From positions 124,001 to 188,000 of the forward strand of contig NZ_NFUT01000005.1 in the NCBI RefSeq assembly GCF_002127215.1: a stretch of DNA of 64,000 bases, in the 5' to 3' direction. The notes below the pieces were generated by a model that saw only the letters and a list, made by a program, of their open reading frames with translations, ran no database searches and had not been told where the DNA came from. Shown here in pieces: positions 20,255 through 27,062 of the stretch. The DNA is from Hydrogenophaga sp. IBVHS2. GTDB taxonomy: Bacteria; Pseudomonadota; Gammaproteobacteria; Burkholderiales; Burkholderiaceae_C. How positions within the stretch are numbered: position 1 is the stretch's first letter; each line of letters starts with the position of its first letter. The translations under genes were made by a program, and so were the position numbers.

Positions 20255-21322
20255 ATGGACATCGCCGACATCCGCCACCGACTCCAGGCCCTGGGCGCCG
20301 GGCCGCTGCATGTGCAGCGCGTGCTGCGCACCTGGGCCAACGCCCTGCCGGTGGATGGCGGGCGGCGCAAGCCGGAGCACCATTTCCCGCGCGGCCTGTT
20401 CGAGGCGCTGCCGGCCGTCACGCAAGAGCTGCAGGGCCTGGCCACGCTGGGCTCGGTGCACCCGGGTGAAGACGGTTCCGCCCGGTTGCTGGTGGCCCTG
20501 CGCGACGGCCAGACGGTGGAGAGCGTGCTGCTGCCGCGTGGCGGCGTGTGCGTGTCGACCCAGGTGGGTTGTGCGGTGGGCTGCACCTTCTGCATGACCG
20601 GCACCGGCGGCCTGATCCGCCAGCTCGGCAGCGCCGAGATCGTGGCCCAGGTGGCGCTGGCGCGGCAGCAGCGGTCGGTCAACAAGGTGGTGTTCATGGG
20701 CATGGGCGAGCCGGCCCACAACCTCGATGCGGTGCTGGAGGCCATCGACCTGCTGGGCACGCTGGGCAACATCGGTCACAAGAACCTGGTGTTCTCCACC
20801 GTGGGCGACGAACGCGCCTTCGACGCCCTGCCGCGCGGCCGCGTCAAGCCGGCGCTGGCGCTCTCGCTGCACACCACGCGGGCCGACCTGCGCGCGCAGC
20901 TGCTGCCGCGCGCACCGCGCATCACGCCGGACGAGCTGGTGGCCCACGGCGAGACCTATGCCCGCGCCACCGGTTACCCGGTGCAGGTGCAATGGACCCT
21001 GCTGGACGGCGTGAACGACACCGACGAAGAACTCGACGGCATCGTGCGGCTGCTGCAGGGCAAGTACGCGGTGCTCAACATGATTCCCTACAACGCGGTG
21101 CCGGGCCTGCCCTTCGCGCGCCCGTCGTGGGAGAAGGCGGCCGACATCGCGCGGCGCCTGCACCGCCGGGGCATCCTGACGAAGCTGCGGCAGTCGGCCG
21201 GTCAGGACGTGGATGCCGGCTGCGGCCAGCTGCGCGCCCGCTCGCTGGCCAGTGGCGAGCAGGTGGTGGCGGTGCGGCGGCGCCGGCTCAGTGCAGTGTC
21301 AGCGGACACGACGTCGTCTTGA
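20255..21322 (+). CDS. rlmN: RlmN-family radical SAM rRNA methyltransferase
   Basis: This 355-aa enzyme has the radical SAM cluster motif GCAVGCTFC. The two mechanistic cysteines of RlmN are present: one seven residues before the cluster ([10 protein letters not shown]) and one near the C-terminus (DAGCGQLRA). The family segments MGMGEP and LNMIPYN are also present. It would methylate C2 of A2503 in 23S rRNA and/or A37 in tRNA. It is not in the usual rlmN-ndk-ispG context, so it may be a second, divergent copy. ATG 20255 follows a GACAAT -10-like element by only 9 bp. Its 3' end overlaps the convergent rubredoxin gene by 35 bp. Confidence 0.85.
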
Positions 21323-22517
21323 CCCGCACTACCGCCGCGCGCGGCTGGTAGGGCGCCGGCGCCGTGCCGCACACGGCCGCGGCAATCGCCTGCGCCTGAC
21401 GGGCAATGGGTTCGATGTAGCGGCTGGGCTGGCCGTCGATCGCGATGCAGTCGCCCAGCGCATGGATGTGCGGGTCGCTGGTGCGCAGCGTGGCGGCATC
21501 CACCGCAATGCCGTTGTGCCAGGCCAGGCCAGCGCCCTGTGCCAGGCGCGGCGGCGTGGCCAGGCCGGCGGCAGCGATCACCTGGTCGGCCGCAAAGCGC
21601 TGACCGCAGGCGGTGGTCAGCCGCAGGGCGCCACCGGCCCGTTCGAGCTGCTGCACCTGCACCCCGCCCACGAAGCGGATGTTGAGGTCCTGCCACGCGG
21701 CCAGCAGCGGGTCGGCGGCCTGCTGCTGCGGCCAGCGGCCCAGCGGGTGGCTGGCCTGGTCGAGCAGGGTGATGCGGTGGCCGCCCAGGGCCAGATCGTT
21801 GGCCAGCTCGCAGCCGATCAGCCCGGCACCCACGATCAGCACGTCGCGCGGTACGTCGCCCAGCGCGGCCCGCAGCCGGCGGTAGGCGTCCAGGTGGTTG
21901 ACCCGCCAGCACAGCTCGGCCGGCAGCGCGGGCGGCAGGCAGGCCTGGGCGCCGTGGGCCAGCACCAGCCGGTCGTAGCGCAGCGTGCCGCGCGTGGTGC
22001 GCAGGCTGCGGGTGTCGGGGCAGATGCGCACGGCCTCGGTGCGGGCCATCAGCCGTACCCCCAGGCGGGCCGCAGCGGCAGCGCCGCTCTCCCGAACCAG
22101 GGCGCCGTCGTCAAGGCGGCGGGCCACGGCCACCGACAGCAGCGGCTTGTCGTACACATCGCCGGCACAGCGGGTGACCAGGGTGATGGGCAGTGCCGCA
22201 TCGCGTTCGCGCAGGGCCTGGGCCATGGACCAGCCGGCGCGTCCGGCACCGACGATCACCACCCCGGCAGGGCCACCCCGCCGCACCACGGCCGTGGGCG
22301 CGGAACCGGAGCGGGCCATCAGTTCTTCGCGGCTGGGCGCCCGGTACAGCCGGAAATCGGCCTTGGTCACGCCGCACAGCGGGCAGGCCCAGTCGTCGGG
22401 GATGTCGGCATACCGGGTGCCGGCGGCCAGGCCGCCGTCGGGGTCGCCCTCGGCCTCGTCGTAGATGTAGCCGCAGGCGTCGCAGATGTACTGCTGGTAG
22501 GGGGCCTCGGTGTTCAT
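21288..22517 (-). CDS. Rubredoxin fused to FAD-dependent rubredoxin reductase
   Basis: This 409-aa fusion has an N-terminal rubredoxin (residues 10-60) with Fe ligands [16 protein letters not shown] and [10 protein letters not shown], then a NAD(P)H:rubredoxin reductase-like flavoprotein. The latter has FAD dinucleotide fold [17 protein letters not shown] fold [14 protein letters not shown] and the C-terminal ALGDCIAID that holds FAD. It would pass electrons from NAD(P)H through FAD to the FeS4 centre. It overlaps the flavoprotein gene by ATGA, so the neighbour is the likely electron acceptor. Confidence 0.92.
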
Positions 22518-25368: not shown

Positions 25369-26985
25369 TCAGCGCAGCCCCGCCTTCTTCAGCCGGTAGG
25401 CGAACTGCCGCAGGGTCAGCCCCAGGCTCTGCGCGGCACGCGACTGGTTGCCGCCGTGCTGTGCCAGGGTGTCCGCGAGTTGTCGTGCGTCGTGCGAATC
25501 GGCGGGCCGGTAATCCCGCACCAGGGGCGCGGAGGGGGCCGGGGTCAGCGGGGCCGGCGCGGTGTCCGGTGGCACTGGCGGCGTGCCGCTGCCGGCCACC
25601 GGCCCGCCCGGCATGAAGCGCCGCAGCACGGCTTCGTCCACCGCCGTGCGGTCGGCCAGCAGCACCACGCGCTCGATCAGGTTGCCCAGCTCGCGGATGT
25701 TGCCGGGCCAGTCGTGGGCGTCCAGCCGCTCCAGCGCGCCTGGCGTGAGGTGCACATTGCGCTGGTGGGCCTGGTTGGCGCGGCTGATGAAGTGCAGGGC
25801 CAGTGCCCGGATGTCCTCGCGCCGCTCGCGCAGGCTGGGCAGGCGGATGGGCACCACATGGATGCGGTAGTACAGGTCGGGCCGGAAGCGGCCGGTCTGC
25901 ACGTCCTGCGCCAGATCGCGGTGGGTGGCGGCCACCAGCCGCACGTTCACCCGGACCTCCTTGCGGCCGCCCAGGCGGACCAGCGTGCCTTCCTGCAGCG
26001 TGCGCAGCAGCTTGGACTGCAGCGACAGCGGCAGCTCGCCGATCTCGTCCAGGAACAGGGTGCCGCCGTCGGCCTGCTCGAACCAGCCGGCGCGCGAGCC
26101 CACCGCGCCGGTGAAGGCGCCCTTTTCGTGGCCGAACAGTTCGGACTCGAACAAGGTTTCGGGAATGGCGGCGCAGTTCACCTTGATGAAGGGCTGGGCA
26201 TGCCGGCCGCTGGCCAGGTGCACCGCGCGGGCGAACAGCTCCTTGCCGGTGCCCGATTCGCCCAGCAGCAGCACCGTGGCCTGCGACTGCGACACCCGCT
26301 CCAGCTCGGACAGGGCCTGCAGCAGCGGCGGCGAGCGGCCGATCAGCCCGTAGCGCGCGGTGTTCACCTCCAGCGCCCGCGCCAGTTCCTGGTTGCGCTC
26401 CTGCAGGGCCCGGGTCTGCTCGTCCACCAGCCGCTGCAGCTGCAGCAGCTGCCCGGTGAGCGTGGCCAGCAGGCCCAGCACCGCCAGGTCGTCGTTGAGG
26501 TGCCGCTGGCGGCTACGGATGCGGTGGCAGGCCAGCACCCCTTCGGTGCGGCCTTCCACCACCACCGGCAGCGCCACGAAGGCCACGGTCTGGGGCGGCA
26601 GCCTGTCGCGGGCCACCGAGCGGAACAGGAAGCCGGGTTCGGCGTCCACGTCCTGCACGATGGCGGGCATGCCGCTGGCCAGCACCCGGCCGGTGATGCC
26701 CTCGCCCGGCCGGTAGACACCGCGCGCCACCTCGGCGGCGGTCAGGCCGTAGGCATGGGCGATGCGGGCGGTGGGTGCACCCTGCCCATCGCGCAGCACG
26801 ATGCGCCCCCGGTTCAGGCCCAGCAGCTCGCTCATGAGGTGCAGCATCTCCCGCAGCACGAAGCCTGGCGCCAGGCTGCGCCCGACCAGCTTCATGACCT
26901 CGCGCAGCAGCAGCAGCTCCTGGGCGCGCCAGTCGATGGGGGGAGCGTCCGGTGAGGGGTGGGGTGGGGGTGGGGGCATGCGCAT
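25369..26985 (-). CDS. GAF-AAA+-Fis sigma-54-dependent activator
   Basis: This protein is 538 aa from ATG 26985; a GTG at 27045 is possible. Domains: GAF sensor about residues 25-180 ([15 protein letters not shown] ... [18 protein letters not shown]), linker coiled coil, AAA+ with [15 protein letters not shown], the sigma-54-contacting GAFTGA loop ([15 protein letters not shown]) and Walker [11 protein letters not shown], then a Fis HTH ([26 protein letters not shown]). NifA/NorR-like layout, so its GAF domain probably senses a small molecule. It lies just upstream of, and parallel to, the sigma-54 operon it probably controls. Confidence 0.93.
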
Positions 26986-27062
26986 CGGTACAAGCAAGCA
27001 ACGCACCAGACGGGCAGGGGTATCGGGCTGCGCCTTGATTGACACTGCGATGACTGAAACTT

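Follow-up and report, generated by a model that had tools for sequence, protein, structure and literature searches.

Sigma-54-controlled rhodanese-OsmC-flavoprotein-rubredoxin reductase genes beside the cyanate genes of Hydrogenophaga sp. IBVHS2: a possible path from thiocyanate to cyanate

What could a rhodanese, an OsmC family protein, an acyl-CoA dehydrogenase (ACAD)-like flavoprotein and a rubredoxin reductase do together? The question arises from the minus strand of our window, the whole stretch of 64,000 nucleotides of Hydrogenophaga sp. IBVHS2 DNA that was analysed. A tandem rhodanese (sulfurtransferase) gene (24305..25189; two PF00581 stretches, with the Cys in the second domain, CFKGARAS) is followed by genes for an OsmC family protein (23676..24236; PF02566, one conserved Cys in GGCL), the ACAD-like flavoprotein (22514..23659; PF02771, with PF00441 slightly under its cut-off) and a rubredoxin fused to a NorW-like FAD/NAD(P)H reductase (21288..22517; PF00301 and PF07992), whose start overlaps the ACAD-like stop in ATGA (22517-22514). 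The initial annotation had listed these four minus-strand genes, the ATGA coupling, a promoter, a palindrome and an activator gene, and we confirmed every element in the sequence; its view of a single operon is supported by genes that run from 25189 to 21288 behind a -24/-12 promoter and an activator. It was aware of no pathway on record that combines these genes, and the available parts of the open-licence literature agree, since we found no such pathway described there. Judging from the sequence, we consider it an evenly balanced proposition that the operon is an upstream add-on to cynABDS in which the ACAD-fold flavoprotein yields cyanate, most likely from thiocyanate, while OsmC and the rhodanese take the sulfur.

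The sigma-54 promoter, TGGCACGACCGTTGCG (25239..25254, minus strand; TGGCACG-N4-TTGCG), precedes the rhodanese gene. It had been called exact, which holds up to the last base, where it has one mismatch to TGGCACN5TTGCW. Six sites with at most one mismatch occur within the 64 kb compared with 3.2 expected, and the window promoter alone is weak; it becomes strong because it is kept across OsmC-type loci. Such a promoter was found upstream of 68 of 86 of these loci, compared with 5.7 expected when random stretches of those loci are scanned (86 of 89 loci were scanned, the other three having less than 300 nt upstream, and only OsmC matches above 200 bits were taken as true OsmC). With a slightly different pattern, sites were present and absent in 60 and 4 loci with an activator gene in the stretch and in 12 and 10 without one (Fisher p = 1e-4, with related genomes treated as independent and some stretches cut by contig ends). 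Upstream of the -24 element, at a distance of about 90 bp and within the 85 to 100 bp given initially, lies the palindrome CAATGTCGACATTG (25336..25349), the probable activator site (UAS), with further TGTCGACA-like half-sites beside it. We counted 88 copies of its core octamer, TGTYRACA, in the 14.4 kb ahead of such promoters and 48 in 1,251 kb of other sequence (6.1 compared with 0.038 per kb, about 160-fold); of 29 distances from one copy to the next, 25 measure 11 nt. The conserved promoter and these repeats support the earlier picture of a sigma-54 promoter combined with an upstream array and a neighbouring activator. The activator gene (25369..27045, minus strand; start at ATG 26979 or GTG 27045) encodes GAF, sigma-54 AAA+ and Fis-type HTH domains and is CynF-like by type and neighbourhood. 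The nitrogen-fixation regulator NifA was rejected as an identity, as the protein scores 467.7 bits against the NifA cut-off of 528.85.

The neighbourhood holds a second unit, which the initial annotation had not reported. Transporter and cyanase genes occupy 15153-18810 on the plus strand, 2.5 kb from the operon, with their own -24/-12 site, TGGCCCGTTGCTTGCA (15102..15117, plus strand), directly upstream of the cynA-like gene; sites with at most two mismatches precede this gene in 33 of 37 relatives, compared with 5.9 expected. The genes, all on the plus strand, encode a CynA/NrtA-like substrate-binding protein (15153..16568), a cynB-like ABC permease (16571..17434), a cynD-like ABC ATPase (17424..18302) and the cyanase CynS (18367..18810; TIGR00673, 174.2 bits against a cut-off of 113.3, matched at G000:C5:142367-142807, which is window 18367-18807). 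The window has the hallmarks of a cyn cluster (cynF-cynABDS): a CynABD-type transporter, a cyanase, a sigma-54 promoter and a Fis-type activator, the latter a candidate CynF. The sulfur-handling theme of the initial annotation is supported, but its "organosulfur or persulfide" target is not supported in that form; it overlooked these genes, and their linkage points to cyanate. In Pseudomonas pseudoalcaligenes CECT5344, the available text of PMC6627978 describes cynFABDS with a sigma-54 site at cynA and induction by cyanate in that strain. Both systems have a sigma-54-dependent Fis-type activator adjoining the cynABD transporter and cynS; compared with that cluster as described, the OsmC, ACAD-like, rubredoxin and rhodanese genes are extra here and constitute a distinct operon that has a promoter and UAS of its own.

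The gene order, on which the initial annotation had staked its operon view, is conserved elsewhere. Among the 80 named loci, which are the best 80 of at least 545 relatives and mostly from Burkholderiales, the four genes are uninterrupted in 44, and OsmC, ACAD and rubredoxin/reductase are uninterrupted in 71. The OsmC position is filled in these best 80 by OsmC itself (73 loci), a CMD protein (PF02627; five) or neither (two), such that OsmC and CMD/AhpD-like proteins take the same place at different loci, and the rhodanese is missing from 28 of the 73 OsmC-type loci, some of which are truncated at contig ends. Rubredoxin, as a gene or as a fusion, accompanies 78 of the same best 80 of at least 545 and 21 of 26 order loci, supporting the earlier suggestion of rubredoxin as the likely electron donor in this lineage; among plasmid loci it is limited to 4 of 8, and at the phylum level to 2 of 12. 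Because the module HMMs were trained on L030-L055, recognition of those loci is partly by construction (L095 and L118 come from the same genomes as L032 and L033). The phylum-level loci (L144-L155) lie outside the class of the window, and in 8 of these 12 the rhodanese immediately follows the ACAD gene, which suggests that sulfur and cyanate are handled together.

Linkage to cyanase was also evident at the genome level. In the order, 13 of 16 OsmC-type genomes have a cyanase compared with 66 of 300 overall (22%; Fisher p = 3e-7), and in the phylum sample 13 of 14 compared with 72 of 398 (18%; 67 over the cut-off; p = 1e-9), where related genomes were taken as independent. The three OsmC-type genomes of the order that lack cyanase belong to one genus. 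The original split of 16 OsmC-type and 8 CMD-type genomes omitted G212 (cyanase present, ACAD on a 3.4-kb contig with unreadable neighbours) and the distant homologues in G133 and G119. Of the 49 named loci (among the best 80 of at least 545 relatives) that have 8 kb or more on both sides, 28 carry cyanase in their flanks, and cyanase is a separate or opposite-strand unit in the window and most loci that hold it. ACAD, transporter and cyanase form an uninterrupted run at 9 of 126 loci from alpha-, beta- and gamma-proteobacteria (L045, L089, L091, Malikia L093, L149, L153 and plasmids of Marinobacter, Acetobacter and Caballeronia). The genome-level enrichment and these nine runs make cyanate the likely product of the module. 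For comparison, we hand-picked 20 cyanase loci from the 51 cyanase-bearing genomes of the order that have no ACAD match. None, even when matches at E 1e-6 were admitted, had an OsmC, rhodanese, activator, rubredoxin or DUF302 gene; the sole matches to other parts of the module were a weak one to ACAD (54 bits) and a weak one to the reductase (35 bits). Fourteen of these controls carry cyanase and transporter genes with a CynA-like protein of the window's clade and no module.

The binding proteins add a hint about the substrate. In a tree of sampled loci, a hand-picked part of the best 80 of at least 545 relatives, a second binding-protein clade has 24 members, all beside ACAD, and none from the 14 controls. 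A further tree of every binding protein of at least about 300 residues (99) placed eight orphan CynA-like proteins beside ACAD in one clade (support 0.993). Both results indicate that the ACAD substrate is probably imported, and it probably resembles the anions bound by NrtA/CmpA relatives; the binding protein of one relative (L049) matches PF13379, with NrtA/CmpA among its solved relatives. The window's own binding protein belongs to the clade found also without ACAD, and its transporter may therefore be limited to cyanate.

These importers bear on an unlikely alternative, cyanide detoxification, in which the flavoprotein would be a cyanide monooxygenase (CN- + O2 + 2e- -> OCN-), the rhodanese would scavenge cyanide to thiocyanate and cyanase would remove the cyanate. 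Rhodanese, monooxygenase and cyanase would be accounted for jointly, and, by our own reasoning, a flavin hydroperoxide could oxygenate CN- by simple chemistry. However, HCN diffuses and would need no ABC importer, whereas binding proteins accompany the ACAD gene, and OsmC would be left without a clear task. A cyanide monooxygenase is described in the available text of PMC11049912 as proposed without experimental demonstration, and this gene set would supply it if cyanide were the true substrate.

The flavoprotein itself has the acyl-CoA dehydrogenase fold (AlphaFold2 pLDDT 86.6; Foldseek TM about 0.8 to SCAD/butyryl-CoA dehydrogenase). The catalytic glutamate is absent from both of its known places: the IVD position is a small residue (Ala in the profile, Ser243 in the window protein), and the MCAD/SCAD segment YEGT, presumably their catalytic-Glu motif, corresponds to IVTPA in a hand alignment past the end of the profile match. 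A true acyl-CoA dehydrogenase is ruled out by the missing glutamate. DszC and MsuC, each of which we take to be a group D member, have the fold and the sulfur theme in common with it; their donor is a flavin reductase, whereas rubredoxin is the likely donor here, and the sequence is distant from DszC. No curated SfnB or DszC model was among the NCBIfam matches at E 1e-3, and DszC is only a remote profile match (E about 1e-9). The available text of PMC13352529 establishes that ACAD-fold (group D) flavin sulfur monooxygenases exist and take reduced flavin from a flavin reductase. This precedent, which is in keeping with the thiocyanate reading as well, favors the initially proposed role in organosulfur acquisition or detoxification by SfnB/DszC-like S-oxygenation, with cyanase as a frequent but functionally separate neighbor under common nitrogen/sigma-54 control, as do a distant homologue on an S. 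elongatus plasmid beside cysteine synthase and ABC transporter genes, the position of cyanase outside an uninterrupted run at most loci and its absence from all but one of the 9 CMD-type genomes (the exception, G119, whose locus L054 is of the CMD type, has it on another contig). Against this, cyanase stands within the uninterrupted run in three proteobacterial classes and is enriched in OsmC-type genomes, and we consider such a role improbable.

Another small nitrogen-sulfur or cyano anion yielding cyanate, such as selenocyanate or an organic thiocyanate, would fit the same linkage evidence, as the binding-protein ligand is a predicted assignment. We give this only a small chance: thiocyanate is the commonest ion of the kind, and no compound-specific gene was noticed, albeit without a dedicated search. 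OsmC belongs to a thiol peroxidase family, as do CMD/AhpD-like proteins, and the two interchange at the same place, but a protective annex of cyanate assimilation is highly unlikely. In such an annex, OsmC, the rhodanese and the flavoprotein would mend or remove thiols damaged by carbamoylation or oxidation under cyanate or oxidative stress, which would account neither for the additional binding proteins next to ACAD nor for the 14 controls that have cyanase and its transporter genes and lack the annex.

Returning to thiocyanate, we provide a putative mechanism whose substrate, electron flow and individual chemical steps we infer, the substrate from the company that the genes keep. The GAF-domain activator would bind the TGTCGACA repeats and switch the operon on. 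A small anion, most likely SCN-, would be imported by the CynABD-like transporter or, in other lineages, by the second transporter clade or with an extra orphan binding protein. In this lineage, electrons would pass from NAD(P)H through rubredoxin reductase and rubredoxin to the ACAD-fold flavoprotein, which, once reduced, would activate O2 and oxygenate the sulfur of SCN- to give OSCN- or an equivalent. The single conserved cysteine of OsmC might then pick up the sulfenyl group as Cys-S-SCN, the hydrolysis of which would yield cyanate and an OsmC persulfide; the OSCN- and persulfide chemistry is speculation. The rhodanese, perhaps DUF302 in some lineages, would accept the sulfur, and cyanase would convert cyanate into ammonia and CO2. 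The window protein and all 14 listed orthologues have the first OsmC cysteine, and a cysteine near the second position occurs in one of these 14 (L045). Where we would expect the second cysteine, the window protein reads YSPVANT, and it does not carry the two catalytic cysteines that we take to define an OsmC two-Cys peroxidase.

Thiocyanate is, in general terms, mildly toxic and occurs in saliva. According to the available text of PMC5328954, it is also an industrial waste ion as well as a natural one, two enzymatic degradation routes are described, heterotrophs use it as a nitrogen source, and finding a cyanase does not prove that a cyanate route operates. Tentatively, and with somewhat less than even confidence, we suggest a third enzymatic route that would answer how heterotrophs use thiocyanate nitrogen: an O2- and rubredoxin-dependent ACAD-fold flavoprotein would remove the sulfur of SCN-, leaving cyanate, and a one-Cys OsmC or CMD/AhpD-like protein would accept that sulfur, the genes being spread on chromosomes and plasmids of alpha-, beta- and gamma-proteobacteria. 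If true, ACAD-fold enzymes and rubredoxin would gain a new job and OsmC a defined pathway place, and this widespread, partly plasmid-borne gene set with its clear regulatory signature would offer possible bioremediation genes. Thiocyanate hydrolase, a nitrile-hydratase relative, shares the theme of thiocyanate degradation but hydrolyses it to COS and ammonia (the COS pathway). Of 28 OsmC-type genomes, 17, including that of the window, gave no match to the NHase alpha family, and thiocyanate hydrolase was rejected for that genome (93% complete), in which PF02979 was not found. In the available text of PMC5328954, the cyanase gene of Thiobacillus thioparus adjoins thiocyanate hydrolase, and the Thioalkalivibrio thiocyanate dehydrogenase of the "cyanate pathway" has the same net outcome as proposed here, SCN- to cyanate and sulfur. 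The locus of that enzyme carries copper-cofactor uptake genes, a different context from the ACAD-fold flavoprotein, rubredoxin, OsmC and ABC importer seen here. PF02461, considered for an ammonia-oxidiser context, matched 0 of 16 OsmC-type genomes, but the control genomes were equally without a match, and this absence therefore carries no weight. At five loci (L145, L147, L148, L151 and L152), a sub-threshold activator-like gene scoring about 360 bits separates the ACAD and cyn parts, adjoining the binding-protein gene on the opposite strand as cynF does beside cynABDS.

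The four minus-strand genes at 21288-25189 code for a rhodanese of tandem type, a member of the OsmC family, a flavoprotein resembling acyl-CoA dehydrogenases (ACAD-like; 22514-23659) and an FAD reductase of NorW type with a fused rubredoxin. As the initial annotation had stated, the last two genes overlap as ATGA, and a GAF-AAA+-Fis activator gene, a palindrome and a -24/-12 promoter precede the operon. This observation is confirmed and enlarged: absent from that annotation were the plus-strand genes for an NrtA/CynA-like binding protein, a permease, an ATPase and a cyanase (15153-18810), a set that lies 2.5 kb past the end of the four-gene operon and has its own -24/-12 site at 15102-15117. 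Between the two groups lie what we take to be RlmN- and pirin-like reading frames. The genome (3.17 Mb, 7 contigs, 93% complete) holds one rpoN gene over the curated cut-off and a second rubredoxin gene.

ACAD-like relatives were found in 27 of 300 genomes of Burkholderiales (E 1e-20) and in 16 of 398 genomes of Pseudomonadota (profile search, E 1e-60). The species-genome collection gave matches at no fewer than 545 places, and the plasmid collection gave 40 records, of which 18 came from one species; the plasmid matches include Neisseria and Moraxella. To map the loci, we used an HMM for each gene family and counted OsmC and CMD proteins (PF02627) separately; a run was called uninterrupted when gaps between reading frames were at most 700 nt and no mapped opposite-strand gene intervened. 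The 80 named loci, the best 80 of at least 545, comprised 73 with OsmC, 5 with CMD and 2 with neither. The order OsmC-ACAD-rubredoxin/reductase was uninterrupted in 71 of them and the full order with rhodanese in 44, many loci being shortened by contig ends. The activator gene adjoined all four genes in 25 of the 80 and stood directly next to OsmC-ACAD in 14 more. Because these runs recur across the named loci, the gene order on which the operon view depended is conserved elsewhere.

There is good support for the sigma-54 signals. Of the 86 OsmC-type loci examined, 68 had a -24/-12 site with no more than one mismatch ahead of the first gene, compared with about 5.7 expected from random stretches of the same loci. 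With a second, slightly different pattern, the activator gene was missing from the stretch in 10 of 14 loci lacking the site and in 12 of 72 loci having it. The window's palindrome represents one copy of a repeated octamer, TGTYRACA, which occurs 88 times in 14.4 kb upstream of these promoters versus 48 times in 1,251 kb elsewhere. It is present in 59 of 72 loci, and 25 of 29 successive spacings are 11 nt, approximately one helical turn; to judge from this pattern, the repeats look like an array of activator sites. A separate -24/-12 site (at most two mismatches) precedes the cynA-like gene in 33 of 37 cases, with 5.9 expected, but the octamer lies near only 3 of the 37. Therefore, the ACAD and cyn operons both look sigma-54 dependent, apparently through different upstream sites. 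In Pseudomonas pseudoalcaligenes CECT5344, the sigma-54-dependent Fis-type activator CynF is needed for cynABDS, according to the excerpted text of PMC6627978. In five loci (L145, L147, L148, L151 and L152), a further sigma-54-activator-like gene, less closely related (~360 bits against the activator HMM), adjoins the cyn binding-protein gene on the opposite strand, as cynF lies beside cynABDS.

The linkage of the module to cyanase is also well supported. Cyanase was found in 13 of 16 OsmC-type genomes of the order versus 66 of 300 overall (Fisher p = 3e-7, genomes treated as independent) and in 1 of 9 CMD-type genomes, with one ACAD genome that could not be typed (G212) standing outside this split; in the phylum sample, it was found in 13 of 14 OsmC-type genomes versus 72 of 398 overall (p = 1e-9). 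Cyanase lay in the flanks of 28 of the 49 named loci having at least 8 kb on each side; by coordinates, 8 of 12 phylum-level genomes have it no more than ~8 kb from the ACAD gene. ACAD, transporter and cyanase genes formed one uninterrupted run in 9 of 126 loci, by name from alpha- (Acetobacter), beta- (Malikia, Caballeronia) and gammaproteobacteria (Marinobacter). The order OSMC-ACAD-RUBRRED-SBP-PERM-ATP-CYNS (RUBRRED, rubredoxin-reductase; SBP, binding protein; CYNS, cyanase) is followed by the activator in L089, L091 and Malikia L093, by a porin-like gene and then the activator on an Acetobacter plasmid (L137), and is preceded by the activator on a Caballeronia plasmid (L143). The remaining runs are ATP-SBP-PERM-activator-OSMC-ACAD-RUBRRED-CYNS on a Marinobacter conjugative plasmid (L136), OSMC-ACAD-RHO-SBP-PERM-ATP-CYNS (L149; RHO, rhodanese), ATP-SBP-PERM-OSMC-ACAD-RHO-CYNS-reductase (L153) and ACAD-DUF302-RUB-SBP-PERM-ATP-CYNS (L045; RUB, rubredoxin). 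As a control, 20 cyanase loci, hand-picked from 51 in genomes of the order without an ACAD gene, were mapped identically. Fourteen had the binding protein and ATPase, 13 of these also the permease; none of the 20 had a match to OsmC, CMD, rhodanese, activator, rubredoxin or DUF302 at E 1e-6, and the only other matches, a single ACAD of 54 bits and a single reductase of 35 bits, were both weak. Since control loci carry cyn genes without the module, the ACAD module is an optional annex of the cyn genes, not a constant neighbour.

In a midpoint-rooted tree of 80 sequences, the binding proteins formed two clades. The larger, with 56 members, takes in the window's protein and the CynA-like proteins of all 14 control loci that have one; the smaller, of 24, seen only beside ACAD when compared with the control loci, contains every CMD-type binding protein in the tree except that of the Moraxella plasmid, and is found with both ACAD and cyanase in L136 and L153. 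Twelve CynA-like proteins lacked an adjacent permease, and 8 of them (two, L033 and L118, from the same genome) formed one clade beside the ACAD operon (support 0.993); L040 and L121, which have such a protein beside ACAD, also carry complete cynABDS. The solved relatives of the binding proteins are NrtA and CmpA, and by analogy the ACAD substrate would, most simply, be an imported small anion resembling their ligands.

The AlphaFold2 model of the ACAD-like protein (mean pLDDT 86.6) has the acyl-CoA dehydrogenase fold (Foldseek TM ~0.8 to short-chain enzymes, ~20% identity). Where isovaleryl-CoA dehydrogenase has the Glu that we take to be catalytic, the profile has Ala and the window protein Ser243, both small; one solved chain with Ala for Glu marks this position. 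A hand alignment puts IVTPA opposite the C-terminal YEGT segment found in short- and medium-chain enzymes. Because the catalytic Glu is kept at neither place, acyl-CoA dehydrogenation is unlikely. Some flavoproteins with this fold are known to act on sulfur compounds (group D in the excerpted text of PMC13352529); DszC is a remote profile relative, and no SfnB model was among the NCBIfam matches. Rubredoxin, alone or reductase-fused, occurs in 78 of the 80 named loci (the best 80 of at least 545) and in 21 of the 26 loci of the order; among plasmid loci it occurs in only 4 of 8, and among phylum-level loci in only 2 of 12. Thus, the earlier proposal of rubredoxin as electron donor stands for the window's lineage, where a rubredoxin-fed monooxygenase is likely, whereas other lineages must use a different donor or encode rubredoxin elsewhere.

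One OsmC cysteine is conserved in all 14 listed OsmC-type loci plus the window, with a cysteine near the expected second place in 1 of the 14. In other loci, a CMD family protein with a CxxC motif occupies the position of OsmC; since two unrelated thiol families fill the same place, the ACAD loci point to a required cysteine step. This CMD/AhpD-like sister system (L032, L038, L041, L042, L046, L050, L051, L054, L055 and L138) mostly has rubredoxin and often an ABC transporter; its cyanase, in 1 of 9 order genomes, is distant from the locus. Rhodanese directly follows ACAD in 8 of 12 phylum-level loci. A DUF302 (PF03625) gene accompanies ACAD and rubredoxin, lying between them, in seven order loci (L039, L043-L045 and L047-L049), which suggests that its product takes part in the same sulfur step. 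The induction of OsmC by sulfur limitation in Pelagibacter, reported in the excerpted part of PMC5069961, is an independent hint that OsmC proteins can be part of sulfur metabolism.

As a set, the importer, the proposed flavin oxygenase, the thiol protein, the sulfurtransferase and the cyanase fit a pathway that would convert thiocyanate to cyanate and sulfane sulfur, and cyanate in turn to ammonia and CO2. We speculate on a possible chemistry: thiocyanate would be S-oxygenated to OSCN-, which the OsmC cysteine would capture as Cys-S-SCN; hydrolysis would yield cyanate and a persulfide, and rhodanese would take away the persulfide. Thiocyanate is our best guess for the substrate, to which we give about an even chance. 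The excerpted text of PMC5328954 describes a hydrolase route to COS and a dehydrogenase route to cyanate, names heterotrophs using thiocyanate as a nitrogen source, and warns that cyanase alone is no proof of a cyanate route. The main rival substrate is cyanide, for which, according to the excerpted text of PMC11049912, a monooxygenase has been proposed but still lacks experimental demonstration. Among the open-licence papers listed by full-text searches, none, judged by title and abstract, reports such a gene set. Beyond the thiocyanate reading, a distant ACAD homologue (29.6% identity) on a Synechococcus elongatus plasmid (L142, 8388-12844) lies downstream of cysteine synthase, in a run that also includes an SCO4226-like gene and an ABC transporter, and may be a cyanobacterial relative that serves sulfur supply; this homologue and the CMD-type loci suggest such a role for part of the family.

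Several neighbouring genes deserve mention. A DUF1348/SnoaL-like protein is encoded immediately downstream of cyanase (18824-19291, plus). Directly upstream of the cynA-like gene (12929-15015, plus) are presumably a PAS-type sensor histidine kinase and a NarL-type response regulator, which may feed into cyn regulation as well; their coding region contains, at 13101-13116, an exact -24/-12-like sequence. Divergent from the activator gene (27077-27759, plus), what we take to be a gene for a PIN-domain-like toxin is followed at once by a small gene of ribbon-helix-helix-like type; the two form a possible toxin-antitoxin pair. The plus-strand stretches at ~10160-11233 and 27916-30681 are presumably two halves of methionine synthase MetH, which lie ~17 kb apart and enclose the cyn and OsmC-ACAD region. 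Of 106 loci searched, 17 have the C-terminal half, the window's own stretch included, and one other locus (L097) has both halves with the cluster between them.
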